From a virus: a stretch of DNA of 61,060 nt. Location of the stretch: IMG/VR virus record IMGVR_UViG_3300027857_000021, positions 1 through 61,060 of that record; one strand, 5' to 3'. Of this stretch, positions 1 to 61,060 are shown piece by piece. The position numbers and the translations under genes were made by a program. The stretch's first letter is position 1, and every line of letters starts with the position of its first letter. Under the pieces are notes generated by a model. It worked only from the letters and a program-made list of their open reading frames with translations. It was not told the DNA's origin and did no database searches.

Positions 1-410
1 GACATCTTCCAACCGGAGTTATCGTTTTCTACACCCTTCTCTATAATGGTGTTCATCCAGCAAACGCAATCATCCGCTGGTCGGTCATCGATTATTCGTG
101 GGGTGACGATACCCTCCTGTGCTAGTCGATCGGTCAGTATGTCAACAGCCCACCATATAGGGTCCTCATCGGTATAAGTCCACCAACGTGTACCAAAAGA
201 CTGCCTAACTTTAGCTTGTAGTTGTCGGTGAGCCTCACGTACTTCAGTGTCTGTCGTGTATAGTTCAGCTGTCGGTAACGCCTCGTCGGCTTGAGACGTC
301 GTCATACCGGACTCTAGCAAGTGTATAACGGTATCTACAATAGCATCCCATACGCGACGCTCGATCCTCTCCGACGTACCAAGGTAAAAGGTTGGGTGTT
401 TATACGACAT
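1..410 (-). CDS. Hypothetical protein, 3' end off the window
   Basis: The frame opens at the ATG at 410 and stays open to base 1, giving at least 136 residues; the C-terminus lies outside the window. The start overlaps the stop of the upstream gene in a TAATG junction, so it is translationally coupled. The protein is soluble-looking, rich in W, E and R (for example RWWTYTDEDPIWW near residue 85), with no signal peptide or membrane segment. I do not recognise the family. It is the last visible member of the operon driven by the promoter near 4.0 kb. Confidence 0.75.
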   Translation of the reverse strand, partial: MSYKHPTFYLGTSERIERRVWDAIVDTVIHLLESGMTTSQADEALPTAELYTTDTEVREAHRQLQAKVRQSFGTRWWTYTDEDPIWWAVDILTDRLAQEGIVTPRIIDDRPADDCVCWMNTIIEKGVENDNSGWKM

Positions 411-691
411 TAGATCTCCTCTTTTAAGCTACTGTCTATAGTAGGGGTTCCCCTTCCGGTCTGTATCCAATCCTCATTTACCCAATAAGCACCTCTTTGG
501 GTAAAGTAGTAAAAGGTCGGTCGCAACAGGGGTCTGTTCAACGGGTCCCTTTCTGAACTGATATCTGACACCCAGCAGTACGCGGGGTACTGTGCTTCCA
601 GTTGCCTAGCCCGTTCAAGCATAGCTTGAGTGTCCATCCTAACAACCATTGCCATACCCCGGTTCATAGCCGTGTCGAGTTTGCTACTCAT
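410..691 (-). CDS. Hypothetical protein
   Basis: A 93-residue protein with a clear GGAGAAC ribosome site 3 nt before the ATG. It overlaps the next gene by one base and the previous one by 8. The N-terminal third looks helical; the centre has aromatic and proline residues (YFTQRGAYWVNEDW). No known motif is visible. Function unknown. Confidence 0.75.
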   Translation of the reverse strand: MSSKLDTAMNRGMAMVVRMDTQAMLERARQLEAQYPAYCWVSDISSERDPLNRPLLRPTFYYFTQRGAYWVNEDWIQTGRGTPTIDSSLKEEI

Positions 692-953
692 TAGTTCTCC
701 TCTCTTCTGGGTTGTCGAGTTTGTACGCCTCTAAGGAGTCGTATCCACCGTAGAAGTTCTCGTTCCATATCTGCTTGAGCCATTCGAAGCTCGGGTAGTC
801 TGCTAAAAGTTCTTTCACAACCTCTAACTGTCGATCCATTCGACAGAGGTCCCTTGCTAACTCAGCACCTCCACCTCCACCTAAGTAGTTCTCCGTAAAC
901 TCAATCCGCCTCTCTAGCAACTGTTTAAGGGCTTCTAATAGGTATTCCGGCAT
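684..953 (-). CDS. Hypothetical protein
   Basis: An 89-residue, mostly helical, acidic protein with a GGGG turn near residues 25-28 (NYLGGGGGAEL). It overlaps the downstream gene by 8 bases and lies 5 bases after the upstream stop. No recognised family. Its place in the dense operon and its composition support real coding. Confidence 0.7.
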   Translation of the reverse strand: MPEYLLEALKQLLERRIEFTENYLGGGGGAELARDLCRMDRQLEVVKELLADYPSFEWLKQIWNENFYGGYDSLEAYKLDNPEERRTNE

Positions 954-958
954 AGTGA

Positions 959-1240
959 TTAGTCACCTTCGTCTTCGATAAGCTCTGCTGTACGCTCGTT
1001 CTGCTCGTACTCGTACGCCCAATCCGGTAGGTAGTGGGTTTCCTTGAAATTCTCCTCCACGAAATCTGCTATCGCCTCGTCTCTAAGCTCTTCCTCAGTG
1101 TCGTCCTCTAGCCGAAGTTTGTTTTGTTCTATATACTCTGCAACGAAGGCTTCCAATTCATCCTCATCGACTTCTACTTCATCCTCTACTGCCACTGCGA
1201 TACTCGCACTGTAGCTAAACCTTAACGTCTTACCACTCAT
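959..1240 (-). CDS. Small acidic protein, duplicated family member A
   Basis: A 93-residue, strongly acidic protein. It shares a pattern with the next gene upstream (1240-1548) and with 2686-2967: a beta-like N-terminus, V-[DE]-[VE]-[DE] then LEAF-V-x-[EK], a DxLRxEA-[IV]-x-x-F segment and P-[DN]-W near the end. Three diverged copies in under 2 kb indicate local duplication. RBS GGAGAAC; TAATG coupling with the upstream stop. The high negative charge is reminiscent of DNA-mimic inhibitors, but that is only a guess. Confidence 0.75.
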   Translation of the reverse strand: MSGKTLRFSYSASIAVAVEDEVEVDEDELEAFVAEYIEQNKLRLEDDTEEELRDEAIADFVEENFKETHYLPDWAYEYEQNERTAELIEDEGD

Positions 1241-1548
1241 TATTGGTTCTCCTTATCTTCGTCAACGACTGCAGTCGTGAACTCCTCATCTGTTGTGAGG
1301 TCGATGTCAAGCCAATTCGGTACGGTATCAGCTCCATGGTTCTTTCTAAGCCACTCTTCAATGAACGCTTCGACTGCTTCTTCTCTCAGTTCGGCATCCG
1401 TTGGATTCTGACTCTGCCACTCGTCTCGTGAGCGAGCTTTGTACTGTGCTAAGAAGTCCTCGAACTCGGTCTCGTCTACTACGAACTCATCAGCTATCGT
1501 CCCCTCCACTTTTGCGTAGTAGCCAAACCATAACTTCCTATCAGCCAT
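1240..1548 (-). CDS. Small acidic protein, duplicated family member B
   Basis: A 102-residue paralogue of 959-1240: KLWFGYYAKV aligns with TLRFSYSASI, VDETEFEDFLAQY with VDEDELEAFVAEY, and LREEAVEAFIEEW with LRDEAIADFVEEN. I chose the ATG at 1548 because GAGGAGAAC lies just upstream, while an earlier in-frame start lacks one. Acidic and soluble; function unknown. Confidence 0.75.
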   Translation of the reverse strand: MADRKLWFGYYAKVEGTIADEFVVDETEFEDFLAQYKARSRDEWQSQNPTDAELREEAVEAFIEEWLRKNHGADTVPNWLDIDLTTDEEFTTAVVDEDKENQ

Positions 1549-1550
1549 TG

Positions 1551-5224: not shown

Positions 5225-5590
5225 CTACTTTGGCAAGTCTTTCAGCTCACACCACACGTAATTAGCGAGTTCGAGTCCGACGTCCATGTCGAGTGGGAAT
5301 AGTGTATCGTTGCCGGACTTAAACAGCGAGTCGAATAGCACAGCGTACTGGAGTTGCCCTCGCATTAGTTGGACCAGTGACTCTGTACAGACCTCTAGTA
5401 AGTAGTCGGCGTATGCTCTACGGACGCAGTCCCATGCCCACATGAAGCCCCACTGATACCAATCTTCAGCATCCATCTCGGATTCTAAGTCGAAAGCGTG
5501 CAGTTTGTACGACAATTCCTTAGCTCTGTCCCACACGTGTTTGGGGACTCTATACGGAAGCTCTTCCTGTGCGTATGGTGTGTGGTCCAC
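5225..5590 (-). CDS. Hypothetical protein (GTG start)
   Basis: A 121-residue helical, aromatic-rich protein (WYQWGFMWAWDCVRRAYADY). The GTG at 5590 has AGGGAGG 4 nt upstream. It ends directly before a strong terminator, so it closes the 7224 to 5225 operon. Family not recognised. Confidence 0.75.
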   Translation of the reverse strand: MDHTPYAQEELPYRVPKHVWDRAKELSYKLHAFDLESEMDAEDWYQWGFMWAWDCVRRAYADYLLEVCTESLVQLMRGQLQYAVLFDSLFKSGNDTLFPLDMDVGLELANYVWCELKDLPK

Positions 5591-5600: not shown

Positions 5601-6053
5601 TTATGACTGTAGCATGTATAACACTATCACTGCGATGCAGACTACAAACACAACTATCCAAGTCGTATGCAGTACAATAGACTTAACAGGCAGCTTAGGC
5701 CTGGTAGTAGCAACGTTGTCATTGACAGCTTCCTGCTTGCTAGACCTAGCTAGAGTCTCACCAACGTCTCGCATCTCCCGGTGATAGAATACGTGAGCCT
5801 TCATCACTAGTTTTGCATACTCCTCCACATCCTTACCCGTACTCAGTTCAGGATGGTTCAGCGAGACGTACTCTCGTACGGAAGAGGGTTCTACGTACAC
5901 ACCCTCCTGTGCTAAGTTAGACAGGTCCTGCATAATGTTACCCATCTGTGCCATCCTAGGACCGTTAGGATGTCCGTGAAAGGGCCAGAGCTCGTGATGT
6001 AACCGATTTGCAAACTCCGTATCCGCTAAACGAGGTGCTGTTTGACTTGCCAA
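5601..6053 (-). CDS. C-tail-anchored membrane protein
   Basis: A 150-residue protein: a soluble helical domain (residues 1-120) then one hydrophobic helix at the extreme C-terminus (TTWIVVFVVCIAVIVLYML), so probably tail-anchored with the N-terminus in the cytoplasm. TTG start directly after the upstream TAG, with GGAGG inside the preceding codons. Function unknown. Confidence 0.7.
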   Translation of the reverse strand: MASQTAPRLADTEFANRLHHELWPFHGHPNGPRMAQMGNIMQDLSNLAQEGVYVEPSSVREYVSLNHPELSTGKDVEEYAKLVMKAHVFYHREMRDVGETLARSSKQEAVNDNVATTRPKLPVKSIVLHTTWIVVFVVCIAVIVLYMLQS

Positions 6054-6622: not shown

Positions 6623-7224
6623 TATGCTAAAAACTCCAACAGTTTCTCCTGTAGTCTACTTATAGCTCCGGGTTGCCTTAGTTTAGCTGTCAGCCACTGG
6701 TCATACGCTCTATCCGGAAAGCTGACGTAGTCTACTCGAGTCATGATCGCACTAGCCCAATAGTGCGTGATTTCAAGCAACTGACTGTCTGAGGGGTTCT
6801 CCAACTGCATACCGTCATGCAAGTAAGAGTACTTAATAGGGTCGAGGAACCAAAGCTCCTCAAAATACCTCCAAGACGTATAATGACGTTCATACAGCTC
6901 TCCTACCGCGCAACCTTCCATATGGGATACCCTTATATCCCATAGTAACTTCTTCCATGTAGCTTGTGGAAACTCTCCCCGGTTGTCGTGGAACTCCTCC
7001 CCTTCTACTGCTGCGTACGCTATTGCGTACTTAATCGGATCAGGAGATTTAGTCAGTGTCACAAAGTCTACTGCGACACTCCATCTAATACCCGCTAAGT
7101 CAGTCGCTGTTACTCCAGTCCTAAGCCGGCATAGCACAGCGTCGATGATCTGTGCCCAGCTTACCTGAATGTAAGGGGCTTGTTCCACGTACCAACGGTC
7201 GTAGTCGGGGATACCGGTCTGCAT
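6622..7224 (-). CDS. Hypothetical protein
   Basis: A 200-residue, Trp/Tyr-rich helical protein. The ATG at 7224 follows AGGAGCAC by 8 nt, whereas the longer reading begins at a TTG without a site and within the promoter leader. First gene of the operon driven from 7265. Family not recognised. Confidence 0.7.
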   Translation of the reverse strand: MQTGIPDYDRWYVEQAPYIQVSWAQIIDAVLCRLRTGVTATDLAGIRWSVAVDFVTLTKSPDPIKYAIAYAAVEGEEFHDNRGEFPQATWKKLLWDIRVSHMEGCAVGELYERHYTSWRYFEELWFLDPIKYSYLHDGMQLENPSDSQLLEITHYWASAIMTRVDYVSFPDRAYDQWLTAKLRQPGAISRLQEKLLEFLA

Positions 7225-8000: not shown

Positions 8001-8380
8001 TCTTCTGTCTCCTTTGTCCAGGCTCTCATCAACACGCTGTTCTGGAAGATCTCTGATAGCACAGTCGGTATGCCTAGTGCTATCGCGTATGCTGTCGCCG
8101 CTGTTACTAGCGGTGGATCGTAACCTAAAGACGACCAGTAAGCAGCTTCATGCTCTTGCATGTGTTGTATAAAGTCTGCTACTACCACTGATGACAGCAG
8201 CGTTTCGTACTGCTTAACACCGTCCTCATCTAACGAGACCGACATAAAGGGCTTTACCCCTAACTGTACTCTCAACTCATGTTTGAATCTAGCAGCAATC
8301 CTGCCAGGAGGAACTCGTTCCCAAATGAAGTTTTGCAACGTCGTCAACATCTGCTTACTCACTTTCTTTTTGGCTCCCAT
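7997..8380 (-). CDS. Hypothetical protein, tandem paralogue 2
   Basis: A 127-residue paralogue of 7662-8000. The ATG at 8380 gives ten extra basic residues (GAKKKVSKQ) ahead of the shared TLQxFI start; an internal ATG at about 8350 is an alternative. Helical and soluble. Function unknown. Confidence 0.7.
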   Translation of the reverse strand: MGAKKKVSKQMLTTLQNFIWERVPPGRIAARFKHELRVQLGVKPFMSVSLDEDGVKQYETLLSSVVVADFIQHMQEHEAAYWSSLGYDPPLVTAATAYAIALGIPTVLSEIFQNSVLMRAWTKETEE

Positions 8381-10502: not shown

Positions 10503-10912
10503 ACGTTCTCCTTCTTTCTTGTTGGTATCCACACCAACAACTCTTGACTACCGAGCTCGGCATTCGCCCGCGTATTTGCGACTAGTTTAGCACAGTAGCC
10601 TACTCGCTCTAGCTCCGCTTGCACTTGATAGAACCAAGCGAGACGTTCAGTTTCTCCTAGACCGTGGTAGTACAGCCGAAACGCTAACGTTCCTACCCCA
10701 GACTTAGGAGCGGGTGACATCGTATAGCCTGTATCCCATACCAAACCATGTCCTGAATGATTGTCAGCAACCGCTGACTTTGCACCGGTCGACTCAATAA
10801 CGTCTTCCAATAACTCACGTTCGGTCTTCCTACTCTCGTCTGGCGGCGTATACGTCCTGACCGAGGACGCACCATCTCCAACCAGCCTACTACCGATAGG
10901 GTCTTTAGTCAC
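10499..10912 (-). CDS. Hypothetical protein (GTG start)
   Basis: A 137-residue soluble protein with GAGGTGG upstream of the GTG and a GTGA overlap with the preceding gene. The C-terminal half looks alpha/beta (LAWFYQVQAELERVGYCAKL). Family not recognised. Confidence 0.7.
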   Translation of the reverse strand: MTKDPIGSRLVGDGASSVRTYTPPDESRKTERELLEDVIESTGAKSAVADNHSGHGLVWDTGYTMSPAPKSGVGTLAFRLYYHGLGETERLAWFYQVQAELERVGYCAKLVANTRANAELGSQELLVWIPTRKKENV

Positions 10913-11343: not shown

Positions 11344-12102
11344 TTAATTCAGTTGCTTTGGTTTCGGAGTAGCTCCGCTTAGGCCTTTGTTAATCTGTAT
11401 ACGGTTGCCGGCCTGTACACCGGCATTGAAAGCGTCCGCACTGGTTGCATTAGTTATTGGTCCAGCAACCAATTTCGGGTGAAACTTTTTGACTGCGGTC
11501 GCAAGAGCTTGGTCCTTCACGACCATCAACGCTTGCATGTTTCTGTCAGCAGAGCTAGTAACTGACTGCTGACTCCTCAACCGACGCGCAACAGTTAATA
11601 CAGCTCCTTTGTAGAAGCTGTCCATGTACTGCATTTTCGGCATGCGGACACGATATCTATTGCCTAACCAACTCGCTTCCCCCAAAGAGGAGATAGCTCC
11701 AGTTAAGTACGTAAAGAGGTACTTAACGACCTCTATGTTATGAGGTTGACCTACTAGCATAGAGATCTGTGGGGGTTGCTTAGTCGCAGGTTGATGCATA
11801 GCACTAGCAGCGTACTTAATACCGACAGTCTGGCAGAAGTTACAGCCGGCTATCTCGGCTAGTAGCTGTCTACGCCAAGCGGTAGGTACACCGAAAGGAA
11901 CACCCAGGTCTACGGGTGTTTCTGTGTAGTCATCCGTAGAACCGAACTGCTCCACCTGTGCTACCTCTAGATTGTACTTAGCTAGTAACTCCTGTACTTT
12001 AGCTGCGGCGGATGCAGCTTCTTCTGGCGTACCCGGGTGGTCTCTTAAAGCCATTAACGCTTTAAGTCGTCTAAATGTCGCGCTAGTAGGGTTATCCGAC
12101 AT
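11344..12102 (-). CDS. DUF2786-type protein
   Basis: A 252-residue protein. Residues about 8-55 (RRLKALMALRDHPGTPEEA, then AAAKVQELLAKYNLEVAQV) match the DUF2786 helical signature [IL]xKLLALA...EA..A..kAQeLL.kY.Ls. The rest (residues 70-235) fits the C-terminal region usually attached in phage and bacterial members. The family's biochemical role is not established. AAGGAG upstream of the ATG. Confidence 0.75.
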   Translation of the reverse strand: MSDNPTSATFRRLKALMALRDHPGTPEEAASAAAKVQELLAKYNLEVAQVEQFGSTDDYTETPVDLGVPFGVPTAWRRQLLAEIAGCNFCQTVGIKYAASAMHQPATKQPPQISMLVGQPHNIEVVKYLFTYLTGAISSLGEASWLGNRYRVRMPKMQYMDSFYKGAVLTVARRLRSQQSVTSSADRNMQALMVVKDQALATAVKKFHPKLVAGPITNATSADAFNAGVQAGNRIQINKGLSGATPKPKQLN

Positions 12103-14036: not shown

Positions 14037-15027
14037 AATAGTCCTTCCGATCTATGAGCAGAAATGGAGCGTTGAGGTTGCCGTTTAGTAGACTATTCCA
14101 GTAGTGTTCTGCAAGTGGATATCTATGATGTGTACTGAATACCCCCGTAGATACGTGCCGCAGTTCGTCGGTCGCTAGGCTCACATAGTGAAGCACAACC
14201 ATATCGATAGGTGGTAAGTAACAGTCCTCCGGCTGTATGCAGAGGAACCCAATGATACCTCGCTCGCGTACTCGGACCGAAAACGCATGCTGCAGCACAT
14301 CTCCACCGATAGCATACTCAATGTCAGGCCAGATCGTACTGGGTATCACTATCTCAAACGTATGTCTATCCTCTCGCTGTAAGTCATCGAACAGCTTTTG
14401 AGACACCGAAGCTGGCAGCGTCTCCTGTGCTAACAGCAACGACCTCATCAAAGGCATATATCCGTCAATCTCCGAAGTACTCCAACCGGTAGTACGAATG
14501 TCTCCAGTCATCAACGTAACTTCGTCCTCGAGTGCCTCGAATATCACTGACGCTAGCTCATATTCGCTATACAGTCGGGACACCCACTCGTCCTTCCAGA
14601 CGTACAGGGTTCGGTAGTGACCCTCGTAACGGTCAGCTACGTCTCGTGAGATGAGTCGGATCCAAGGCTCCCCTTTTAGGACTTGTAGTTGTAGTTCATC
14701 CGTAAACTTGCTATTCACACGTAAGGACCCAGTTGCCTTGAATAGCTGCCACTGATGTTCATTCAATACCGATGGTCGGTCTAACGTAAGGTCATTCTCC
14801 CAACCATCTGATCTAGCACACTTGCATGTCGGCAAGTCCGGTGGTCGGTTCGACTGAAACCTAGTTGGGTCTCTATACTCGAGGGTATAGGTACTAGCTA
14901 CTGCATTATGTGTAACATACACCGTTGATACCCCGGAACTTACATACGCTACCGTGCCGTTCGAAAGAGTCGTCACGACCCAACCACCGACACTGAAGGT
15001 ACCGCTCATGAATACATTGTCGTCCAA
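14026..15027 (-). CDS. Large hypothetical protein
   Basis: A 333-residue protein starting at TTG 15027, chosen because GGAGG lies 8 nt upstream and this removes a 60-base overlap with the upstream gene. The first 70 residues are beta-rich and Ser/Thr/Val-rich; a CKC follows, and the C-terminal half is alpha/beta. No signal peptide is evident. Family not recognised. Confidence 0.65.
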   Translation of the reverse strand: MDDNVFMSGTFSVGGWVVTTLSNGTVAYVSSGVSTVYVTHNAVASTYTLEYRDPTRFQSNRPPDLPTCKCARSDGWENDLTLDRPSVLNEHQWQLFKATGSLRVNSKFTDELQLQVLKGEPWIRLISRDVADRYEGHYRTLYVWKDEWVSRLYSEYELASVIFEALEDEVTLMTGDIRTTGWSTSEIDGYMPLMRSLLLAQETLPASVSQKLFDDLQREDRHTFEIVIPSTIWPDIEYAIGGDVLQHAFSVRVRERGIIGFLCIQPEDCYLPPIDMVVLHYVSLATDELRHVSTGVFSTHHRYPLAEHYWNSLLNGNLNAPFLLIDRKDYYEE

Positions 15028-15044: not shown

Positions 15045-15824
15045 CTATACTACTTGTGCTTGCTCTTCTCCCTCTTCGTAAAAGAACGGTGCAAGCACCT
15101 CTTCCCACGTTCTTTTACACCTTAACTGTACCTCTTCAGGTAGGTTAGGCTGTCCAATTAAACGAGCTCGCCTAACAAAGGCGAGCTCGTCCCGACGGAA
15201 CAGCTCCAAGTACGCGCCCAGCTGTGCTAGACGGTCTTCCGGTAGCCTATCGTGTCTACGCACTTTCAACATCCCCAGGGGAATACGTTCTTCCGTACTT
15301 GTCGACAGAAAGACCAGCATCGGCGTGTGAGTCTCTAGGGACATAGTAAAGTCATACTCCACATCCGGCGTGAGCGAACTCACGTACGTCGTACACTGCG
15401 TGCTAAAGTCGGCAATCGTCAACTCCTCTAGTACGTCTTGTACGAACGTACTATCTATTCCCTCTGCTTCTTCTATACTCTCGATACAATCCAACTGATG
15501 TATAAGACGTTTAACGGTCTTGCCTGATCTTAGGTCCTGCTCGACCCGACAGCCTTTCTGCAAGAACTCGATTTCGTCGGCGAGTAAGCTTCGGACTGTT
15601 CGTAGGGCGCGTTCTGCTGCACCTGACTCATCAATCTCGTGGGGGAACAGACGAGTTAGTGAGGCATGAGTCCTCCTTTGGAAGACTGTCACTGAACCTA
15701 CCGCCTTAGTGATACGGTAGTCCCAAGGAAAGTACTCGCTTTGGATAGTGACAGCAGTCCTATACTTCCACTCCAGCCATTGGAGTGGAGTTAATAACTG
15801 TTGCATCTCAGTGTCTACGTGCAT
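15045..15824 (-). CDS. Large hypothetical protein
   Basis: A 259-residue, mainly helical and acidic protein ending in EEGEEQAQVV. AAGGAG about 11 nt before the ATG. Always followed by 14026-15027 in this layout, so the two may act together. Family not recognised. Confidence 0.7.
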   Translation of the reverse strand: MHVDTEMQQLLTPLQWLEWKYRTAVTIQSEYFPWDYRITKAVGSVTVFQRRTHASLTRLFPHEIDESGAAERALRTVRSLLADEIEFLQKGCRVEQDLRSGKTVKRLIHQLDCIESIEEAEGIDSTFVQDVLEELTIADFSTQCTTYVSSLTPDVEYDFTMSLETHTPMLVFLSTSTEERIPLGMLKVRRHDRLPEDRLAQLGAYLELFRRDELAFVRRARLIGQPNLPEEVQLRCKRTWEEVLAPFFYEEGEEQAQVV

Positions 15825-20759: not shown

Positions 20760-20981
20760 GTTGCCTATAGCGACTAAGCGTAGCAACGAGACTCCAACAG
20801 CGACGGATGCTGCTCCTAACAACATTGTCCAAAACGCATCCTCCCGAGTCTTGGGGGAAGGTATCCAACTCGAAAGGCATCCGCTCCCGAAGTATAGGCA
20901 GATGAGGCATACAACTGTGCTATATAATCCTGAAGTCGTCAGTATGACCGCTAAGTACTCTAGCGCAATACGGATAGACAC
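20754..20981 (-). CDS. Small two-helix membrane protein
   Basis: A 75-residue protein from the GTG at 20981, which overlaps the upstream TAG (TAGTG). Two membrane helices (about residues 5-33 and 49-70). A longer reading to 21041 is possible but would overlap the upstream gene by 60 bases. Function unknown. Confidence 0.65.
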   Translation of the reverse strand: MSIRIALEYLAVILTTSGLYSTVVCLICLYFGSGCLSSWIPSPKTREDAFWTMLLGAASVAVGVSLLRLVAIGNL

Positions 20982-44610: not shown

Positions 44611-44652
44611 TGTGCTAAAAACCTCGTATACGCTTGAATACTTATACAATAT

Positions 44653-48585: not shown

Positions 48586-49377
48586 CTAGTCGGTGAGCGC
48601 TAGGAATTCGCGGTGAGAATTAGTTTCTTCTAGGAAGTGACCTAGAAGCACTGTAGTTGTAGTATCCGACTTACGTTGACGGACGCCCCTAATCTCCATA
48701 CAACTGTGCTTCCCCACAATTTGCACAGCTACGTGAGGAGTTTCTGCAGCTAGCGAAACCTCTTCCGCTATCCACATCGTGATATCTTCTTGTAATCGAG
48801 GTATGCTGGCACATAACTCAACTACCCTCGGCAGCTTAGACAGGCCGATTGCTCTACCTTCGTAGGGGAGATACCCTACTTTAATAGTATATCGTACAGG
48901 TAGCAGATGGTGAGGACAGAGACCGTCCGCTTGAATGCCGGATACAGCTACCATACCACTATATCCTGTCGAGAACTTCGCCTGTCGTAGTTGTTCTAAC
49001 TCGTACTCAACAGAATCCGGAGACTTAAAGTGTCCTAAGTAGTATGTAGCCACTCTCCTAGCAGTTTCTCTGAAGTCGCCGTGTGTTAGGTCTACCCCTA
49101 AGGATTCCAGCCAATTACGAGTAGAAGCTAGCACAGTTTGATATCGTGCTCGGTCCACTTCCGGGTCATTATGCTGGCGGAAGTGACAGTCGTGGCACAT
49201 TACAATGTCCTCTGTCACTTCCCCACTCTTAACCCTATGTGTCTGCAAACCTCTACCCGTTAACTCCAACGACTGGGCTTCCGTTACGCCACACTGCAGA
49301 CAAGCTCGTACGGATTGCTTACGAAGACCGGCAACAAGTTCCGCACTTAAGTTGAACGGCATACGCTGCGTTGTCAA
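48586..49377 (-). CDS. folE: GTP cyclohydrolase I with N-terminal HNH-like zinc domain
   Basis: A 263-residue protein. TTG 49377 has AGAGGAA 7 nt upstream, fitting the queE stop at 49380. Residues 90-263 are FolE: GLCPHHLLPV (zinc Cys and His), GYLPYEGRAIGLSKL, and HSCMEIRGVRQ (second zinc Cys). It makes dihydroneopterin triphosphate, the first precursor of preQ0. Residues 15-75 add a Cys4 module CLQCGV ... QTHRV ... VMCHDCHFRQH resembling a degenerate HNH finger, which ordinary FolE lacks. Confidence 0.85.
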   Translation of the reverse strand: MTTQRMPFNLSAELVAGLRKQSVRACLQCGVTEAQSLELTGRGLQTHRVKSGEVTEDIVMCHDCHFRQHNDPEVDRARYQTVLASTRNWLESLGVDLTHGDFRETARRVATYYLGHFKSPDSVEYELEQLRQAKFSTGYSGMVAVSGIQADGLCPHHLLPVRYTIKVGYLPYEGRAIGLSKLPRVVELCASIPRLQEDITMWIAEEVSLAAETPHVAVQIVGKHSCMEIRGVRQRKSDTTTTVLLGHFLEETNSHREFLALTD

Positions 49378-49379
49378 TG

Positions 49380-52121: not shown

Positions 52122-53273
52122 CTAGCCTAACTCTTGGCCGTCGTATCCTCCTTCTCGTGGCTGTTGGTAGACTCCTCCCCTTGGTGGACGCTGCACAAAC
52201 TCGTTACGTATGCGGAAGTCTACCTCACCCCCGAGATTTCCAGTTATATTTTCCGTCACACACAGCGCATGATACGGACAACTCCACGCGCAAGAGCCGT
52301 CCCATTTGGGACTAGGATAAATAGGTAGGTTCTCTCTCGACATCTCCCTCACTTCCAACATTAGCCTGTGTGCATGACCCTGCATCTCGTCCTTACTCCT
52401 CAACACATACTCTCTACGCACAAATATCGTACCAGTTGGGTACGTGTTCTGCAGCTTATCTAGCACAGCTGCATAGTCGCTTTCGTTAAAGCCATTGTCC
52501 TGTATCGCTTTCAGATACAGCTCGTACGTAGTTGGGTTGGTGACTATATCCTTACTCAACCCTTTTCCGTTTTTGAGTAGTAGTGGGGGTTTAACTATCT
52601 TTTTAAGCAGTGCCGTGTAAATAACCCCACTTAGTATAGCATCACTAGGTATACCCGGTACTTTACCATTGCGTATCAACCACTGAGCCGCTAACTGGTA
52701 TCTAGCTGTCTGCTCATCTAGTAGCATGACGTCACTGGCCAAATGTGTACCAGCCGTCTTGTACTCGATTAAATAATACAGGCCGTCATTAGTACGGACG
52801 ATACCGTCAATACGCCCCACAAAATAGACCCCTAAGTCTGTTCCGTCATAGTCGACTAGCGGGATTTCAAATTCAAACTCGGTGTGCAGCATCTTGAAGT
52901 CGTCGTGAGTGCTAGCCCAGTTCTCGTAATACGTCAGCATTTGCACACCCAATTCACGCATAGCTTCGTACTTGCTATAGTCATCTCCCATCATCCCCAC
53001 TTCTACCATACGAGTTACATCACTATCAAATACTTCTACAAACGCATCGGATGCATGCACACCATCCCGATAGTGTCGCTCTAACGCATGATGAATCTTT
53101 CTCCCAAAGTCGTACGCAACTGTCCCACGTTTAGGCTCCAAATTCAACTGGGACTCGTTAGAGTAGTACCATCTCCTCCTACATTCCTTAAATTCGCTTA
53201 TACCAGTGGCACTTATGCGTCTTACGGGTAGGGCAACGACTCTAAACGGGTTGCGTTTGTTGTCTTGGGTCAC
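52122..53273 (-). CDS. RecB/Cas4-like PD-(D/E)XK nuclease, copy 1
   Basis: A 383-residue protein from GTG 53273 (AGGAGG 6 nt upstream). RRISATGISEFKECRRRWYY at the start, HHALERHY (His), FVGRIDGIVR (Asp), LIEYKTAG (ExK), DEQTARYQLAAQW (Gln motif), and Fe-S cysteines in CRRRW and CAWSCPYHALC. A 4Fe-4S single-strand exonuclease of the AddB/Cas4 type. Related to 53368-54432. Confidence 0.85.
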   Translation of the reverse strand: MTQDNKRNPFRVVALPVRRISATGISEFKECRRRWYYSNESQLNLEPKRGTVAYDFGRKIHHALERHYRDGVHASDAFVEVFDSDVTRMVEVGMMGDDYSKYEAMRELGVQMLTYYENWASTHDDFKMLHTEFEFEIPLVDYDGTDLGVYFVGRIDGIVRTNDGLYYLIEYKTAGTHLASDVMLLDEQTARYQLAAQWLIRNGKVPGIPSDAILSGVIYTALLKKIVKPPLLLKNGKGLSKDIVTNPTTYELYLKAIQDNGFNESDYAAVLDKLQNTYPTGTIFVRREYVLRSKDEMQGHAHRLMLEVREMSRENLPIYPSPKWDGSCAWSCPYHALCVTENITGNLGGEVDFRIRNEFVQRPPRGGVYQQPREGGYDGQELG

Positions 53274-53367: not shown

Positions 53368-54432
53368 CTACAGGAAATCGTCAGTCGTTGACGGTGTTTT
53401 CTCTCTAGACCATACCCTAGGAGCGTACTGCGTCCTTTTGATCTCGTCATAATCCTTCCCAGTGTTTTCAGCGACACACAACGAGAAGTACGGACACCGC
53501 CAGTAGCAATCCCACGTAGGCGACGGAAGTAGGGCAACTTCCGGGTTAGACATGGCCCTAAATTGCGAGGTCAGTCTCCGCTCTAGTCTAGTCAGCTCCT
53601 CTGCTGACCTTTGTATCCACTCTCGATAGAAATAGCGGTTACCACGTAGTTTCAACTTCACTAGCACATCAGCATAGTCACTCGGCGAAAAGTCGTGCTC
53701 CCGTATAGAAGCTAAATACAACTCATACGTTGTAGCAATACGCGCGTCCCTTAGTAAACTCTTACCGTCGTCAGCAAGCGGGGGAGTAGTTGGAACGGCT
53801 TTCCTCAACCCGTTATACAACACACCCTTAACAGTGGCGGTTTCAGGTACACCGTACTGTGCTAAATCTCCACTTGCAAGTAGTTTTGTAGCTGCCCACT
53901 GATACACGTTAGTCTGTTCGTCGAGTAGCAGGAAGTATTGTGGGGGTTTGATACTGTAGCTCTTGTGTTCGAGTAAATACACGTCGTTTGGTCTGCGCCA
54001 TAGTCGTATAATGCCGTCGAACCTGCCAACTAAGTGACCTTCGGTTTCGGGAATGGGTACCCGAAAGTCCGCCTCTGTTGCTAGTACCTCGAAGTCGTCC
54101 TGCAGACGAGCCCATTCCCGATAGTGTGATAGCATGCCTATACCTAACTGACGTAACTCAAGCCACTTCTGTTCAATATCCCGTTCACCCAACAGCGAAC
54201 GTTGACCTGCCTGTTGCTTGGTAGTCTCAGTAGACCACCACGTATCAAAGCTTACAGAAGGGTCGAAGCCTAAGGAATAAAATCGATCTAGTGCGTGGTG
54301 TACCCCGATGCCGAACCATAAAGCATACGACTGTCTCCGGCTATCCAAATGTTCTAGGGCACTATAGCCCCAGCGTCGTCTGCAAGTAGAGAACTCTTGC
54401 AGTTGTGAAGCAGAAATAGTACGAACAGGCAC
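53368..54432 (-). CDS. RecB/Cas4-like PD-(D/E)XK nuclease, copy 2
   Basis: A 354-residue paralogue of 52122-53273; GTG start with AGGAA 7 nt upstream. Conserved: ISASQLQEFSTCRRRWGY, HHALDRFY, LVGRFDGII, LLEHKSYS (ExK), DEQTNVYQWAA, and CYWRCPYFSLC. All catalytic and Fe-S residues are kept, so both copies look active. It has its own structured leader and promoter. Confidence 0.85.
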   Translation of the reverse strand: MPVRTISASQLQEFSTCRRRWGYSALEHLDSRRQSYALWFGIGVHHALDRFYSLGFDPSVSFDTWWSTETTKQQAGQRSLLGERDIEQKWLELRQLGIGMLSHYREWARLQDDFEVLATEADFRVPIPETEGHLVGRFDGIIRLWRRPNDVYLLEHKSYSIKPPQYFLLLDEQTNVYQWAATKLLASGDLAQYGVPETATVKGVLYNGLRKAVPTTPPLADDGKSLLRDARIATTYELYLASIREHDFSPSDYADVLVKLKLRGNRYFYREWIQRSAEELTRLERRLTSQFRAMSNPEVALLPSPTWDCYWRCPYFSLCVAENTGKDYDEIKRTQYAPRVWSREKTPSTTDDFL

Positions 54433-54660: not shown

Positions 54661-55737
54661 CTACGACGCTTTCACTATACCATACCACTCTACGAATTCT
54701 TTACCGGTGCGGGAACTCTTCGCCACCACGTTCTCTACGTGTGTAAGATCAAACTCTGTACCCAACCAATCGTACAGATCGTTTGGCGGAGGCGAGTTCG
54801 TACCCTGTGTGCTTACGATAAAGTAGGCCGCACCCTTCTCGAACGCTCGGTTGATCCAGGTCCCAATCTCCGCGTACACAGCTTCGGGTTCATGTCTACT
54901 CCAGAACGGTACTTGCAGATCACTTTGCGCTAGCACAGCTGATATTTGAGTGCTGAAGAACGTATACGGGTTAGCTCCGTCTGTACTCATCCAAGGCCAA
55001 GCCGGATCGATATAGCAGACAGCTCCTCCTTCGATATGTAGGTTGTCGAGTGACTCGAGTGCGTCCATATTCGTAACCTGATGCACATACCCGTGCATAG
55101 GCATACTGTCAATAGTACAGCGTATACGTACAGCTTCACGTACAAAACTACGCCAAAACACGTCCGTCGTTACGGAACTGACATCTTGCAACCAACTCAG
55201 CCCGTTGTGCGAACAGTCCTCAACTAAAGTTGCACCTACAGCAGCCAGCACTAACGAGTCTCGCTCGAATTGACTCACCAACCCGTCGATGTACGAGGCT
55301 GTTGCCTCGAAACCTTCTAGTACATCACCTTTCGCTGCACGTCTATGCAGCCAACCCTTTCGAGAAGCTACGTAGATCGGATGTGTAGCTTGAGCGAATG
55401 CCTCTAGCCACTCTTCGAATCCGAGTGTATGCGTCGTTTTACTACACAGCACTGCGTCCAACGACACTGCAGCATATACACAGCGGTCGTTACAAGCGAC
55501 TCGCTGACCTTGCTGTGCTCGATGCACCGGATACCTACCACCACCAGCAGTCAAGTCTACGTACTGTGGAGCTATCTCCACAAGTTGGGTTACAACTTGT
55601 GGATAGCTCGTAATCTGCTGAGTCCCCCAATACGGCGTACTGTACGCACCCTGCTTTGCAAATTCGGTTGGGCCTCCGTACGACTCGATTAAGTTGCTAT
55701 AAGCAACCACCATTTCCTTAATACGTGTGTCTAACAT
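54661..55737 (-). CDS. Methyltransferase-like protein, paralogue 3
   Basis: A 358-residue protein, ATG with AAGGAG 5 nt upstream. Best-preserved of the three paralogues: motif I PQYVDLTAGGGRYP then VACNDR (residues about 55-83), motif IV VCYIDPAWPWMS (near 236), and a C-terminal strand AYFIVSTQGTN. This is the order of motifs in D12/Dam-class N6-adenine methyltransferases, but with DPAW in place of DPPY. Upstream of the nuclease pair and downstream of polymerase I. Confidence 0.65.
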   Translation of the reverse strand: MLDTRIKEMVVAYSNLIESYGGPTEFAKQGAYSTPYWGTQQITSYPQVVTQLVEIAPQYVDLTAGGGRYPVHRAQQGQRVACNDRCVYAAVSLDAVLCSKTTHTLGFEEWLEAFAQATHPIYVASRKGWLHRRAAKGDVLEGFEATASYIDGLVSQFERDSLVLAAVGATLVEDCSHNGLSWLQDVSSVTTDVFWRSFVREAVRIRCTIDSMPMHGYVHQVTNMDALESLDNLHIEGGAVCYIDPAWPWMSTDGANPYTFFSTQISAVLAQSDLQVPFWSRHEPEAVYAEIGTWINRAFEKGAAYFIVSTQGTNSPPPNDLYDWLGTEFDLTHVENVVAKSSRTGKEFVEWYGIVKAS

Positions 55738-55750: not shown

Positions 55751-55966
55751 TTAATAGTGTACGTGTAGTAGTGGGCCTACTACACCAGTCACTCTTAGCA
55801 CAGTGACTACACTCGCTACTACGAACAAGCTGGTTGTAACGATACAACCAGCTAACTGCCACCTTTCTCTTTGGGATGTCGTCGACAATAAAGTCCACAA
55901 CATTCCAACTAACAGACTCCATACTCCCCAAGTTAAGCATAGGTCTGCTACTAGCTGTTCTGCCAC
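55751..55966 (-). CDS. Small two-helix membrane protein
   Basis: A 71-residue protein. Its GTG overlaps the polymerase stop (TAGTG). Two membrane helices (about residues 12-32 and 38-62). A different frame in the same stretch (55731-55940) lacks these features and is less likely. Function unknown. Confidence 0.6.
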   Translation of the reverse strand: MAEQLVADLCLTWGVWSLLVGMLWTLLSTTSQRERWQLAGCIVTTSLFVVASVVTVLRVTGVVGPLLHVHY

Positions 55967-58755
55967 TAATCTAGCTCTACCTGTTCCAGCCAATTCGAAC
56001 CAACCGATACACTAGACTCCATTGGCACATCTAACTTGACCACATTCGACATAATACGCCATACGAGTCGAGCAATATCTAATGCCTCCTCGTTAGGTAC
56101 TTCTAACAGCACTTCGTCGTGTACGGTCAGTACAATACGAGCGTCACTACTACGAGCTTTCAACTCTCGGTTGATAGCGATCAGTGACAGCTTCATCAAG
56201 TCAGCGCACCCACCTTGGATTGGGCTGTTGATAGCCTCACGCTCGTGTGCTGCTAAATCCCCACTTAGATCCGTAAAGAAACGTTTCCTTCCAAAGAACG
56301 TGTTTACGAATCCCTGCTTGTGTAATTGCTCCGTTACGGAGGCAATATACCCCTTAACGGTCTTATACGTCATATGGTACCGCTTGATAAACGTAGCTGC
56401 ATCTATTTCAGGGATGCCTAACATCTCAGCTAGTCCGTGTGGAGACTGACCGTACAAGATCGCAAAACTCACGTTTTTGGCGATCTTACGCTGCAACCAA
56501 GTTACTTCACTTTCGGGTACTTGGTACAATTGACTAGCGGTAATGGTATGCACGTCCACACCTTCTGCAAACAAACGTAGGTAGACTGGGTCTTGTGTAA
56601 CGTGAGTAAGGATACGCAGTTCGGCTTGACTAAAGTCCGCTTTCACCAGCTTGTAACCAGGTCTAGCAATGAAAGCTCTACGTATCAGCTTGCCCACCTC
56701 ACTCTTGATAGGGATATTTTGTAAGTTCGGGTGCGAACTCGACAGTCGCCCGCTAGCAGTCACAATTTGGTTGAAGCTCGTGTGTACTCTACCAGTCACC
56801 GGATGTATCAGTTTGAGCAGACCGTCGATGTACGTGCTTCTTAACTTGGTGAGTTGCCTCCATTCCTGTACGAGTGGTATGATCGGATGCAGTTCCTGTA
56901 AACTCGCTAACTCGTATTTGCCAACTGCATAGCCACGTTTAGTTCTACGAGTGGGTGTAAGTTTGAGGTCACCGAATAAAATCTGTGCTAACTGTTGGTC
57001 AGAGGATAGGTTGAACGATCGACCAGCACTCTCGTAAATGGCTAGCTCTAATTCTGAAATCTTTGCAGACACCTTCACGCCATACTCTCGAATGAACTCA
57101 CCATCTACTAACACACCCTCCCGTTCCATGTCCCGTAAGATCGGTATAATAGGCTGTTCGATCTGCTGGTACAGGTCCATCAACTTCCATCTTGAGAGCT
57201 CTTGCACAATCGGTTGGACTAAACGCAACGTCATGTCAGCGTCAGCACCTGCATATGGAGCAGCGATGTCAATGCCTACGTCGGCCATTGTCATACCTTT
57301 ACGGAAGTTGACAATGTCAGTAATCTCAGTCATCACTATCCCAAGCCTTGTTTTGGTTTGCTCCTTTAGACCCTTCCCAGAAATACCCGGGTCTAACAAG
57401 TACGCACCGACCATCGTATCCATAGCTAAGCCTTGTACCTCGATACCGTACTTTGCCATCACTGCCATGTCATACTTAGCGTTGTGCATATACTTACGGA
57501 CGTGTGGGTCTTCTAGCACAGGTTGTAGTACGCAAAGTACATCCGTCAGAGGTAACTGACGCTCCCGTTCGAGCTTGTGCCCAACTGGTATGTACCAAGC
57601 AGTACCCTCTTGAGTTGACAGCGATATGCCTACTAGTTCGAGTGTAGGCATATCTAAGCCAGTCGTCTCTGTGTCGAAAGACAGCTCCTTCGAGCTCCAA
57701 ATGGCTGTCATACAGGCTTGTAAGTCCCCTAGTGTCTCTACAACCTGTACTAACGTTTCGGGACCTACATCTACCGACTGGCGTCGAGGATCAGGTGCTT
57801 TCCGATAGATGTTAGTAGGTATAGGCAGTACCTGCACCATACCGATTGGAGTCGTCGGGTCGTACATCGGTGCTACGCTAGTACCCGTTAGTATAGCTAG
57901 CTTCTTTATAAAACCCCTGAACTCCAACATTTCGAACAAGGCTTGTAACTTGGGGACGTCGTACTGACCTACTCTAGCCTCCTCTAAGCACAGCTGGATA
58001 GGAGCATTCGTATCAATCGTACCCAACTTCCTACTTAGAAACGCTATGTCTCGATTATCCACAAGCAACTGTGCTATACGAGGCTTGAGTTCGGGCAGAT
58101 GCTCGTAGATGCCTTCCAAACTACCGTACTGTGCTAATAGTTTAGATGTAGTTACTTCACCAAATCCCCTGACACCGGGAATAGCGTCAGTTACATCCCC
58201 AACCAGACCCTTATAGCAAGGGATTTGATCGGGACGCACCTTCATCTTCTCTAGCACAGCTGGGCTGTCATATCGGATCATCTCGGATACACCTCTTTTG
58301 AAGATGTACGCTGAGACGGAGTCGTTGACTAACTGTAGAGTGTCGTGGTCTCCCGTTAGTAATATGGTCTCTACACCCTGTGCTGTCGCCTGCACCGCTA
58401 GAGTACCCAGAATATCGTCCCCTTCGTACCCCAAGCAAGTCACGATTGGGAATCCGAACGCTTGTACGATCTCCTGTATACGTGGATACTGCATCCACAA
58501 GTCGTCTACTGCTTCCGCGGTTCGGTTGCTCTTATAGTCGTTGTAGAGATCGTGTCGTCGTAGACGTCCACCAGGATCGAATGCCACAACGACATAATCG
58601 GGTCGCAAATCTATCACGGCCTTTAACAGCATGCTCGTGAACGCAAACGTCGCTGACGTCAACTCACCTGAACTAGTTATCAGCGTCGTCCCGTACATCG
58701 CGTGATATCCCCGGTAGAGAAGGCTATGGCCATCTACTATTGCGAGTTTAGGCAT
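55966..58755 (-). CDS. polA: DNA polymerase I, full-length
   Basis: A 929-residue family A polymerase from ATG 58755 (GAGGA upstream). Residues 1-290: 5'-3' exonuclease (VDGHSLLYRGY, YKSNR, YEGDDILGTLA, LTGDHDTLQLV, GDVTDAIPGVRGFG). Residues 350-520: 3'-5' proofreading exonuclease (SFDTETTG with D361 and E363, MHNAKYDMAVM, GADADMTLRL). Polymerase: motif A KADFSQAELR (D707), motif B with K760, F764 and Y768, motif C TVHDEVLLEV. All catalytic residues present. It probably completes lagging-strand or repair synthesis, or is the main replicase; the UDG-polymerase at 29582 is the other candidate. Confidence 0.95.
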   Translation of the reverse strand: MPKLAIVDGHSLLYRGYHAMYGTTLITSSGELTSATFAFTSMLLKAVIDLRPDYVVVAFDPGGRLRRHDLYNDYKSNRTAEAVDDLWMQYPRIQEIVQAFGFPIVTCLGYEGDDILGTLAVQATAQGVETILLTGDHDTLQLVNDSVSAYIFKRGVSEMIRYDSPAVLEKMKVRPDQIPCYKGLVGDVTDAIPGVRGFGEVTTSKLLAQYGSLEGIYEHLPELKPRIAQLLVDNRDIAFLSRKLGTIDTNAPIQLCLEEARVGQYDVPKLQALFEMLEFRGFIKKLAILTGTSVAPMYDPTTPIGMVQVLPIPTNIYRKAPDPRRQSVDVGPETLVQVVETLGDLQACMTAIWSSKELSFDTETTGLDMPTLELVGISLSTQEGTAWYIPVGHKLERERQLPLTDVLCVLQPVLEDPHVRKYMHNAKYDMAVMAKYGIEVQGLAMDTMVGAYLLDPGISGKGLKEQTKTRLGIVMTEITDIVNFRKGMTMADVGIDIAAPYAGADADMTLRLVQPIVQELSRWKLMDLYQQIEQPIIPILRDMEREGVLVDGEFIREYGVKVSAKISELELAIYESAGRSFNLSSDQQLAQILFGDLKLTPTRRTKRGYAVGKYELASLQELHPIIPLVQEWRQLTKLRSTYIDGLLKLIHPVTGRVHTSFNQIVTASGRLSSSHPNLQNIPIKSEVGKLIRRAFIARPGYKLVKADFSQAELRILTHVTQDPVYLRLFAEGVDVHTITASQLYQVPESEVTWLQRKIAKNVSFAILYGQSPHGLAEMLGIPEIDAATFIKRYHMTYKTVKGYIASVTEQLHKQGFVNTFFGRKRFFTDLSGDLAAHEREAINSPIQGGCADLMKLSLIAINRELKARSSDARIVLTVHDEVLLEVPNEEALDIARLVWRIMSNVVKLDVPMESSVSVGSNWLEQVELD

Positions 58756-59647: not shown

Positions 59648-59685
59648 ATATACACGTATTATACAACGCTCTGTTTTCAACCACT

Positions 59686-59916
59686 CTAGCAACTAGAAGT
59701 CGTCTTGCTTTTCGACTTTACCGTCACGGACCCATTGGACTTCATCTTGGTCGTCGCCCTACTTTTGGTGTAGTACGAACACCCGGACGAACCACCTACA
59801 ACAATGACTGGTTGCCTACGTACCGGCTGAGAGTAGTAATAGTTAGACGACTGACCGCACGCGATAGTAGCCCCAATAAGCAACGACAGTAACAATACTG
59901 ATAGCGCCTTTTTCAT
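59686..59916 (-). CDS. Small secreted or lipoprotein-like protein
   Basis: A 76-residue protein with a signal peptide: MKKA, hydrophobic core LSVLLLSLLIGATIA, then Cys20 in a weak lipobox (TIAC). The mature part is Tyr/Gly-rich then Ser/Thr/Lys-rich, with Cys near the end. AAGGGG before the ATG. Would sit on the outer face of the membrane; possible superinfection-exclusion role is speculation. Confidence 0.65.
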   Translation of the reverse strand: MKKALSVLLLSLLIGATIACGQSSNYYYSQPVRRQPVIVVGGSSGCSYYTKSRATTKMKSNGSVTVKSKSKTTSSC

Positions 59917-59919
59917 ATG

Positions 59920-60411
59920 TTAGTCCCCTTCTTCTGTTCTATAGAACGTACGTAAGACATATAACTTTATGGAGTCTGGGTCTACATATCGATGGTTGCC
60001 AACGTAGTCAGGCTCACCATTCCATGCACGCCCAACGCCCCACGTATCTAGTTCATGTTGAGCTAGATGCAAAGCCTGTTCCGTACTCAACTCCCTACAA
60101 CTATGTATCCAAGCACTAGCATGCATAACGCTCTCCGGATAGTATCGGTGTATATGCGTAAAATCCACCTTCCACCGCCTCATAGGAAAGCCTAAATCAG
60201 CAAGTCGATTCCTAAGTGCAGTGATTTTGCATCCACGTTCGTGCCCTTCGTCATAGGCATCCGACAGGTCAAGATTACACCAAGAACACTTGTCTATGTT
60301 ACCACTCCTATCGGTGTCTTTGAGTAACACTACATCATCACCTGCAAAGGGTTCGAGTAGTGCAACCTCTTCCTCAACGGTGAGTTTTGGAACGCTTCTA
60401 TCTAGCGTCAT
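59920..60411 (-). CDS. Hypothetical protein with CxxC motif
   Basis: A 163-residue protein with GGAGGAG before the ATG. KCSWCNLDLSDAYDEGHERG then C gives a possible CxxC...HxxxC zinc site (residues 42-61). C-terminal half helical. Family not recognised. Confidence 0.65.
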   Translation of the reverse strand: MTLDRSVPKLTVEEEVALLEPFAGDDVVLLKDTDRSGNIDKCSWCNLDLSDAYDEGHERGCKITALRNRLADLGFPMRRWKVDFTHIHRYYPESVMHASAWIHSCRELSTEQALHLAQHELDTWGVGRAWNGEPDYVGNHRYVDPDSIKLYVLRTFYRTEEGD

Positions 60412-60425
60412 GTAAGAACTCCTCC

Positions 60426-60656
60426 TTAACTTATGGGCTCATGATCGTGCGTGCGAAAGATCCAAAAACTCAGTTCTGGATGATACTTCTCCTTTATGAG
60501 TCTAATCTCAGACAATTCGTCGTACGTCCCACAACCCTCATAGGAGCCGAATTCGTACTTGTCTCCTTCCTTAACTGTTGTACCTATGCACTTACTACTT
60601 AATAAGTAGTAAGGTTGAGTAACGTTTACTGTGTATGTCAACCTACTTTGCTGCAT
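60426..60656 (-). CDS. Hypothetical protein
   Basis: A 76-residue beta-rich protein; GGAG 9 nt before the ATG, which overlaps the end of the helicase gene by 14 bases. Family not recognised. Confidence 0.65.
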   Translation of the reverse strand: MQQSRLTYTVNVTQPYYLLSSKCIGTTVKEGDKYEFGSYEGCGTYDELSEIRLIKEKYHPELSFWIFRTHDHEPIS

Positions 60657-61060
60657 GTGTTAATACTCCTTTTGTAGCTGTACTCCACCATTCACGAACT
60701 TGGCTAGTCTGGACAGCAAAGTTCGTGAATGGCAACGAACTTACTAGTTTCTGTCCGTAGTTGCTTTGTTTGGTAAAAATGCGTGCGTCCAAGCACGCTA
60801 CGACGCCAATGTCGTTAGTCGTCCTAATCAAACGGCCTAACGACTGCTGTGTATTCGTGATCAGTCTCGGTAAGTATAAGTCAGTCCACCACTTACCAAA
60901 ACCAAGCTTCGCATCGCTTTGCAGGATTTTGTCGATCACTGTCTGCTGCTCGAACGGAAGTTTGGAGAGTACCACCAGCGACAGTTGCTCTCCTTGGATA
61001 TCAACTCCCTCCCAGAAACTTTTCAAGCCGAATAGCACAGGCGGTCTGTTCGCAGTCATA
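60643..61060 (-). CDS. DinG-type superfamily 2 helicase, C-terminal end
   Basis: The last 138 or so residues of a helicase whose 5' part lies off the right edge. FGLKSFWEGVDIQGEQLSLV then VLSKLPF is the motif V region of DinG/XPD-like helicases, and QSLGRLIRTTNDIGVVACLD is motif VI with its arginine finger. DinG enzymes unwind DNA 5' to 3' and resolve R-loops; phage copies may help replication restart. The Walker A and Fe-S regions cannot be seen here. Confidence 0.8.
   Translation of the reverse strand, partial: MTANRPPVLFGLKSFWEGVDIQGEQLSLVVLSKLPFEQQTVIDKILQSDAKLGFGKWWTDLYLPRLITNTQQSLGRLIRTTNDIGVVACLDARIFTKQSNYGQKLVSSLPFTNFAVQTSQVREWWSTATKGVLTHAAK

Follow-up and report, generated by a model that had tools for sequence, protein, structure and literature searches.

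A dispersed eight-base word is selected throughout a soil phage genome and may mark start sites of the phage's own primase

The 61,060-nucleotide stretch of viral DNA analysed here (the window; IMG/VR record IMGVR_UViG_3300027857_000021) carries an asymmetric octamer, CTGTGCTA, scattered over both strands. Our analyses strongly support that this octamer is a selected DNA-recognition element and not the trace of one peptide. The reading that we lean towards is that it may be the word by which the phage's own primase, a 777-aa primase-helicase, recognises its template, a role that was absent from those listed in an initial annotation of the window. The carrier is a soil phage, and the window is identical, in reverse orientation, to bases 50,554-111,613 of a longer record, IMG/VR 3300005537_000002 (177,637 bp; hereafter G001). 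Because the ends of G001 share a 110-base overlap and a second assembly, 3300027857_000014, crosses the end join with 0 mismatches and 1 gap, the genome of this phage is a circular map of ~177.5 kb. Genes and intergenic DNA were assigned by our own open reading frame (ORF) calling, in the window and in G001.

CTGTGCTA is the most frequent 8-mer in the window, with 24 copies on the plus strand, as initially counted, and 19 rather than 18 on the minus strand. The whole of G001 holds 125 copies (66 and 59 by strand), and thus the enrichment extends to the entire genome beyond the window; the word read backwards occurs 2 and 6 times. This density of 0.70/kb (704 per Mb) corresponds to about one site per 1.4 kb counting both strands. 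A Markov background of order 3, a check that had been suggested for the octamer, predicts 12 copies in G001 where 125 are seen. The maximal-order Markov model does not flag CTGTGCTA in the window, since the sub-words on which it relies owe their high counts to the octamer itself.

When codons were shuffled synonymously, which preserves every protein and overall codon use, the window genes were expected to contain 3.4 copies of CTGTGCTA and contained 42, the highest z of all 8-mers; the excess first estimated at ~20-fold is therefore real, although closer to ~12-fold by this measure. Across all G001 genes 116 copies stand against 7.4 expected (z=40, top among octamers), so that the proposed check for synonymous codons bent toward the octamer is positive. 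For comparison, across a panel of twelve further phage sequences, made up of relatives and of Acidobacteriota or Thermus phages and in several cases partial, the best synonymous-corrected octamer reached z of 7-12, except for 16 in G006, where it belongs to a longer dispersed element; the top octamer of phage Tunturi_4 reached 23. Intergenic DNA of G001 is enriched like the genes (9 copies vs 0.68 expected). Furthermore, of the 319 positions in G001 proteins at which CTGTGCTA is permissible without an amino acid change, 116 (36%) are filled by it, against a median of 2.9% and a maximum of 7.1% for 60 scrambled octamers on the same measure; it is present at 33 of 55 L/V/I-Ala-Gln sites and at 53 of 139 A/S/P/T-Val-Leu sites. 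The synonymous shuffles and the permissible-position fill rule out a peptide or codon artefact and, together with the intergenic enrichment, uphold the earlier statement that one peptide is not the cause.

Words close to the octamer are informative about how it is read. Matches in the window with at most one mismatch number 126, against 64.5±8.3 in dinucleotide shuffles, and the near-misses that had been described as common are indeed so in genes of the whole phage (CTGTGCTT, 38 vs 6.2 expected; GTGTGCTA, 17 vs 4.3). One-letter variants at positions 1, 5, 7 and 8 are 2.8-fold enriched (167 vs 59 expected), whereas those at positions 2, 3, 4 and 6 are not (54 vs 63). This is the profile that a DNA-reading protein would leave if it were strict at some positions and tolerant at others, because mutation or conversion would deplete the neighbouring words or act evenly; conversion from neighbouring words is ruled out, given that the neighbours are enriched rather than depleted. 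The octamer also has a codon-corrected 5' flank bias in G001 (chi-square 17 at position -2 and 12 at -6), from which we draw nothing, and the flank bias of the Queuovirinae-like phages described below, taken without codon correction, was not used.

The 43 window sites fall into codon phases same-1 (18), opposite-1 (15), opposite-2 (7) and same-2 (2), with one site intergenic. The initial claim that all three frames are used thus comes close: either strand has sites in phases 1 and 2, and none lie in phase 0, in which the reverse complement would be a stop codon. Orientation order along G001 is random (70 runs vs 63.3±5.5), and an orientation switch near 98 kb of the record is absent from the full data. 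There is no clear link between octamer and gene strand (64 same, 52 opposite) and no intergenic preference (9 of 125). Stoperators are intergenic and oriented with transcription, and the repressor or stoperator role that had been considered is accordingly disfavoured. The octamer-free stretch noted at 44.7-49.1 kb exists (44.6-49.1 kb) but is not unusual, as the largest gap in G001 is 5.7 kb and gaps fit random (exponential) spacing (P=0.24). With regard to the C-rich block, initially said to lack the octamer as well, copies are present at 22,523, 22,586 and 24,029. Relative to random choice among permissible places, the G001 sites are slightly more even than expected (coefficient of variation 0.86 vs 0.99±0.085, P=0.036; largest-gap test, P=0.027). 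Inverted octamer pairs were seen twice in G001, as TAGCACAG-CT-CTGTGCTA within an SNF2 helicase gene (stretch L004:7172-7189) and as CTGTGCTA-TATTAT-TAGCACAG between genes (stretch L008:12328-12349).

A second dispersed word bears on the function of the first. Through the deazaguanine genes of the window we reached six further phages that likewise have the fused Gat-QueC, and in five of these, from hosts of different genera, the top octamer belongs to one word family, TGTGGTCA or TGTGGTTA (together TGTGGTYA). Whole records contain 56 copies in JenP2 (E. coli), 52 in MiCath (P. putida), 46 in R7M (Alteromonas), 47 in JG054 (P. aeruginosa) and 57 in Vid5 (Pantoea), and five further records chosen by their Cas4-like exonuclease contain 56 (CAjan), 43 (Yut1), 35 (Kpn2-P2), 62 (AL-2) and 18 (BcepGomr). 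The reversed word occurs 8, 6, 4, 9, 6, 6, 5, 9, 9 and 1 times in the same ten records, in this order; all ten are Queuovirinae and similar phages (Queuovirinae-like in what follows). Six records are not clearly enriched, namely CGphi29 (4), SE13 (1), immuto (5), Nicole72 (1), G001 itself (7) and Tunturi_4 (4). In 37-41-kb pieces of the five Gat-QueC phages, all ten strand series of TGTGGTYA exceed uniform random placement in regularity, at P values from 0.029 to below 0.00025, with a per-strand mean spacing of 1.7-2.9 kb. Given that the hosts belong to different genera, the reader of TGTGGTYA is most likely phage-encoded.

The primase-polymerase of phage NrS-1 starts primers at 5'-TTTGGTTA-3', with GTG(G/A) as a second site, just 5' of the site and by means of its helix bundle domain (HBD), as described in the available part of PMC8718748. 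TGTGGTTA has 7 of 8 letters in common with TTTGGTTA, and TGTGGTCA has 6 of 8. The NrS-1 HBD (PF22763) was detected in four of five Queuovirinae-like primases scanned, twice with a score above the curated cut-off, and its model has a match in eight of the ten TGTGGTYA-enriched records (five over the curated cut-off) and in none of the six others. An alignment of five Queuovirinae-like primases, of which that of JenP2 is 30% identical to that of MiCath, matches 'Primase' structures of the archaeo-eukaryotic primase (AEP) type, for example 6a9w (E 5.5e-16), which we take to be the NrS-1 enzyme, and it also matches the primase-helicase 7ola in its N-terminal part (E 4e-23). Since the word lies one or two letters from the NrS-1 site and the primases have HBD and AEP matches, we infer, by a tight inference, that TGTGGTYA probably is the primase start site of Queuovirinae-like phages. 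JG054 (L183) carries a second over-represented word beside TGTGGTYA, GGCTTGCC (15 copies vs 1.9 expected).

Scanned G001 proteins include one primase-helicase candidate, the 777-aa protein, which has a DUF5906 domain and a D5_N match slightly below cut-off. Its C-terminal half matches 7ola (E 2.4e-8), which is also the structure matched by the Queuovirinae-like primases, there N-terminally. The N-terminus reads CDLD...SGHG...RTPGTRNYK, AEP-like by eye only; these motifs presumably follow the order of AEP primases, and no profile or fold confirms this. A scan for homologues of the N-terminus returned the same phage only. Comparison with the Queuovirinae-like primases did not show direct homology of this N-terminus: of 60 shuffled sequences, 58 scored at least equally for the HBD and 5 for the AEP part.

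We propose that the 777-aa primase-helicase would read CTGTGCTA in single-stranded template and that the primer would begin just 5' of the octamer, on either strand. Start sites would then lie about 2.7-3.0 kb apart on each strand, or 1.4 kb counting both, and selection on synonymous codons and intergenic DNA would maintain their density. The sites may serve lagging-strand or re-priming starts, with primers possibly extended by the 936-aa DNA polymerase I-like protein of the window. As for a wider rule, in which dense, regularly spaced 8-base words such as TGTGGTYA and CTGTGCTA would be strand starts that co-evolve with the reading domain of the phage's own AEP primase, we regard the chances as even.

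Several observations weigh against CTGTGCTA as a primase start site. The link to the G001 protein is weak, as no model or profile detected an AEP domain or HBD in it, and an alignment-free fold had a pLDDT of 35 and gave no usable structure. CTGTGCTA has only the GTG core in common with NrS-1-type sites, and primases usually recognise three or four bases. When each strand is taken by itself, the spacing in G001 shows no clear regularity against uniform random (P=0.05 and 0.17), in contrast to the Queuovirinae-like pieces; one strand of the whole MiCath record likewise lacks regularity (P=0.31, with a 13-kb gap in TGTGGTYA). The sixth Gat-QueC phage, Nicole72 of Microbacterium (24 kb read), does not have TGTGGTYA as its top octamer. 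At a loose limit (E up to 5) the HBD model also matches 9 of 14 genomes of bacteria and archaea taken as controls, one of them over the cut-off, and it has no match in JenP2 and BcepGomr, both enriched in TGTGGTYA. All ten enriched records were reached by way of genes that they have in common, either Gat-QueC or the Cas4-like exonuclease, which leaves other shared genes confounded. The sister phage G003/G004 (one species; TerL 66% identical) has just 4 copies of CTGTGCTA in genes vs 0.68 expected, together with 4 of CTGTGCTT vs 0.65, and two of four G001 octamers are exactly kept in it across four aligned genes. Lastly, the available text of PMC7102993 gives the NrS-1 genome just two copies of its own site.

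Other explanations have to be weighed against a primase start site. The octamer could be Chi-like, controlling a helicase-nuclease (host RecBCD or AddAB, or a phage RecB-like PDDEXK enzyme) and thereby protecting DNA or loading a recombinase; this is close to the recombination hotspot for a RecB-like/Sak4 module that the initial annotation had put forward. The window encodes an AAA_24 protein, presumably Sak4-like, and two proteins of the PDDEXK type. The octamer occupies more of the permissible positions at 40-60 kb of the G001 record, a region that holds these and further replication genes (24 of 42, vs 92 of 277 elsewhere; P=0.003 before correction for nine bins); scanning every 20-kb stretch, however, yields P=0.09 only. 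The orientation of Chi is biased along the replicon, and that of CTGTGCTA is not, by strand counts or by runs. Chi is likewise an asymmetric octamer dispersed within genes and under selection in phage genomes, and the accessible part of Bobay et al. (2013, PMC3784561) describes it as over-represented in lambdoid phages without RecBCD inhibitors; there it is the host's word, at 0.2/kb in Rec- phages and ~2-5 times expectation, unlike the 0.70/kb and ~10-16 times expectation of CTGTGCTA, whose strands are equal and for which no word-rich host was found among the genomes counted. These comprised 438 genomes of the Alicyclobacillus phylum (398 of the phylum and 41 of the Alicyclobacillus family, one in both), with at most ~44 copies per Mb, as we read the counts, vs 704 in the phage. 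Among the Queuovirinae-like phages the same word recurs across host genera, so that a host-read Chi is unlikely there, and SE13 and CGphi29 have distant relatives of the Cas4-like exonuclease yet lack TGTGGTYA. We therefore consider a Chi-like role possible but unlikely.

The octamer could also be a place where a different DNA-binding protein of the phage lands across the genome, acting in packaging, segregation, compaction or silencing. Graded specificity and slight evenness are compatible with any bound protein, and helix-turn-helix proteins do occur among the scanned G001 proteins. Against this, the octamer has no dyad symmetry, no intergenic preference and no clear orientation with transcription, and the regular per-strand series in Queuovirinae-like phages would be left unexplained; we consider it quite unlikely. 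A target word of the phage DpdA, a deazaguanine transglycosylase, or of another DNA-modifying or nicking enzyme is improbable in our estimation. The initial suggestion of a deazaguanine role was right in that the pathway is present in the window (45.6-50.6 kb), and deazaguanine genes also occur in the five Queuovirinae-like phages that were read, but no strong octamer stands out in the portions read of three other phages with such genes (immuto, CP220 and Nicole72). In phage 9g, moreover, dG+ replaces 25-27% of G according to the available part of PMC5567051, far above what the octamer would allow. A methyltransferase target, also suggested initially, found no candidate enzyme among the ~64 window proteins scanned with Pfam, mostly short ORFs being outside the scan. 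Known Pseudomonas phage nick motifs are of similar length, and those of phages tf and Rembedalsseter (TACTRTGMC and WACTRTGAC) are, in the accessible part of their descriptions, likewise short, asymmetric and repeated, and conserved among relatives; however, they have 14 and 13 copies on one strand only, unlike the 66 and 59 of CTGTGCTA. A functionless origin, through mutation, codon usage or biased gene conversion, has nothing in its favour beyond the octamer itself, and we consider it hardly credible, given that codon and low-order Markov nulls fail, neighbours are enriched at some positions only and not depleted, and intergenic copies are equally enriched.

Among the roles weighed here, the primase start site is the one that we favour. 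The NrS-1 site offers the closest likeness, as an eight-base asymmetric word on either strand that, in the available descriptions, is read by a phage AEP primase with an HBD; it differs in having two copies there, as opposed to 125 in G001 and 18-62 in the ten Queuovirinae-like records, and CTGTGCTA is a different word with a putative reader. DNA uptake sequences and HIP1, the latter a palindrome, are also dense short words inside genes, but of cellular genomes, and no cellular genome among those counted is rich in CTGTGCTA. We found no report of CTGTGCTA or TGTGGTYA as a genome-wide signal in the titles and abstract openings of the literature searched. In the textbook view, signals of three or four bases suffice for a primase to start, such that start points look random; here, roughly one in three of the places that proteins permit holds the same eight-base word, and another word is regularly spaced in five related phages. 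If the primase reading is true, strand initiation would be programmed by sequence genome-wide and not nearly random, maps of strand starts would be predictable straight from sequence, and primase specificity could be read from word statistics. It would also mean that genome-wide replication signals can strongly bend synonymous codons, and it would be testable in JenP2 (E. coli K-12) and MiCath (P. putida S12).

The expectation that enrichment should recur elsewhere was borne out for the rest of the G001 genome, whereas most relatives are not rich in the octamer. We counted CTGTGCTA in sets of 5 (beyond G002-G004), 6, 14 viral and 8 records; beyond G003/G004, no relative by TerL, portal, polymerase or other genes was rich in it, with a mild excess over the reversed word in G021 (11 vs 1), G010 (9 vs 2) and G011 (7 vs 2). 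The TerL of G001 is 54-57% identical to that of contigs L051/L057/L058, one of which belongs to the Alicyclobacillus contaminans genome, which may hint at a Bacillota host; the value for the Alicyclobacillus contig is 57%. In a Granulicella plasmid, of which the initial 50 kb were counted, no high density of CTGTGCTA was seen. Tunturi_4 (PP885687; L020-L022) carries an asymmetric word of its own, CTAGGA(A/T)T, dispersed in 67 copies over 88 kb, its core CTAGGA occurring 204 times in genes vs 37 expected; CTAGGATT has only two copies in the 476-kb Granulicella plasmid. CTAGGAWT is a possible further case of the same phenomenon, but the primase-helicase of Tunturi_4 is of Toprim-DnaB type and the per-strand spacing is no more regular than random. 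G006 (L023-L028) carries ~43 copies of a dispersed element, GTGGGCAGGAAACGG, which is longer and has conserved flanks, and hence was not counted as the same phenomenon.

Table 1 Octamer sites and genes discussed in the text; positions are those of the window unless stated otherwise.
Feature	Position	Strand	Remark
CTGTGCTA	117..124	+	intergenic by own ORF calling
CTGTGCTA	1444..1451	+	
CTGTGCTA	5336..5343	-	
CTGTGCTA	5907..5914	+	
CTGTGCTA	7132..7139	-	
CTGTGCTA	8057..8064	-	
CTGTGCTA	10588..10595	-	
CTGTGCTA	11956..11963	+	
CTGTGCTA	14425..14432	+	
CTGTGCTA	15222..15229	+	
CTGTGCTA	16508..16515	-	
CTGTGCTA	19485..19492	+	
CTGTGCTA	20915..20922	+	
CTGTGCTA	22523..22530	+	
CTGTGCTA	22586..22593	+	
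CTGTGCTA	24029..24036	-	
CTGTGCTA	26431..26438	+	
CTGTGCTA	26764..26771	+	
CTGTGCTA	29588..29595	-	
CTGTGCTA	30503..30510	+	
CTGTGCTA	31889..31896	+	
CTGTGCTA	34179..34186	+	
CTGTGCTA	37630..37637	+	
CTGTGCTA	38155..38162	+	
CTGTGCTA	38263..38270	-	
CTGTGCTA	40597..40604	+	
CTGTGCTA	41266..41273	-	
CTGTGCTA	41652..41659	-	
CTGTGCTA	42083..42090	+	
CTGTGCTA	43449..43456	-	
CTGTGCTA	44295..44302	-	
CTGTGCTA	44610..44617	+	
CTGTGCTA	49129..49136	-	
CTGTGCTA	52461..52468	-	
CTGTGCTA	53857..53864	+	
CTGTGCTA	54931..54938	-	
CTGTGCTA	55796..55803	-	
CTGTGCTA	56983..56990	+	
CTGTGCTA	57514..57521	-	
CTGTGCTA	58069..58076	+	
CTGTGCTA	58129..58136	+	
CTGTGCTA	58252..58259	-	
CTGTGCTA	61033..61040	-	
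Primase-helicase, 777 aa	G001 record 42287-44620, outside window	-	proposed octamer reader (putative)
DNA polymerase I-like protein, 936 aa	55966..58776	-	5'-3' exonuclease, 3'-5' exonuclease, polymerase domains
Gat-QueC	45566-47140		36-39% identical to phage proteins annotated archaeosine or queuosine synthases
DpdA-like transglycosylase	47263-48066		29% to DpdA of Flavobacterium phage immuto (tblastn)
FolE	48586-49425		
QueE	49380-50159		
QueD	50209-50619		

The five deazaguanine genes listed in Table 1 make up a complete pathway at 45566-50619 of the window; a profile search with PF01702 (TGT) gave no match for DpdA, and the DpdA-like gene came from tblastn. The window has two family A DNA polymerases, at 29582-32632 and 55966-58776, one of them fused to a uracil-DNA glycosylase domain. 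In the G001 record, ten tRNA genes are clustered in stretch L010:5349-8142, and a repeated, mostly intergenic motif (L002-L010) consists of CTCTTG(A/T) followed by TATAATATAAA, ~18 bases after CTTGAT by eye; its many copies (for example at 58299, 89228 and 98097 of the record) resemble sigma-70-like promoters. A terminator-like hairpin, TCACTGTCG-TTTC-CGACAGTGA, occurs in five copies in L073, for example at 2045-2065.

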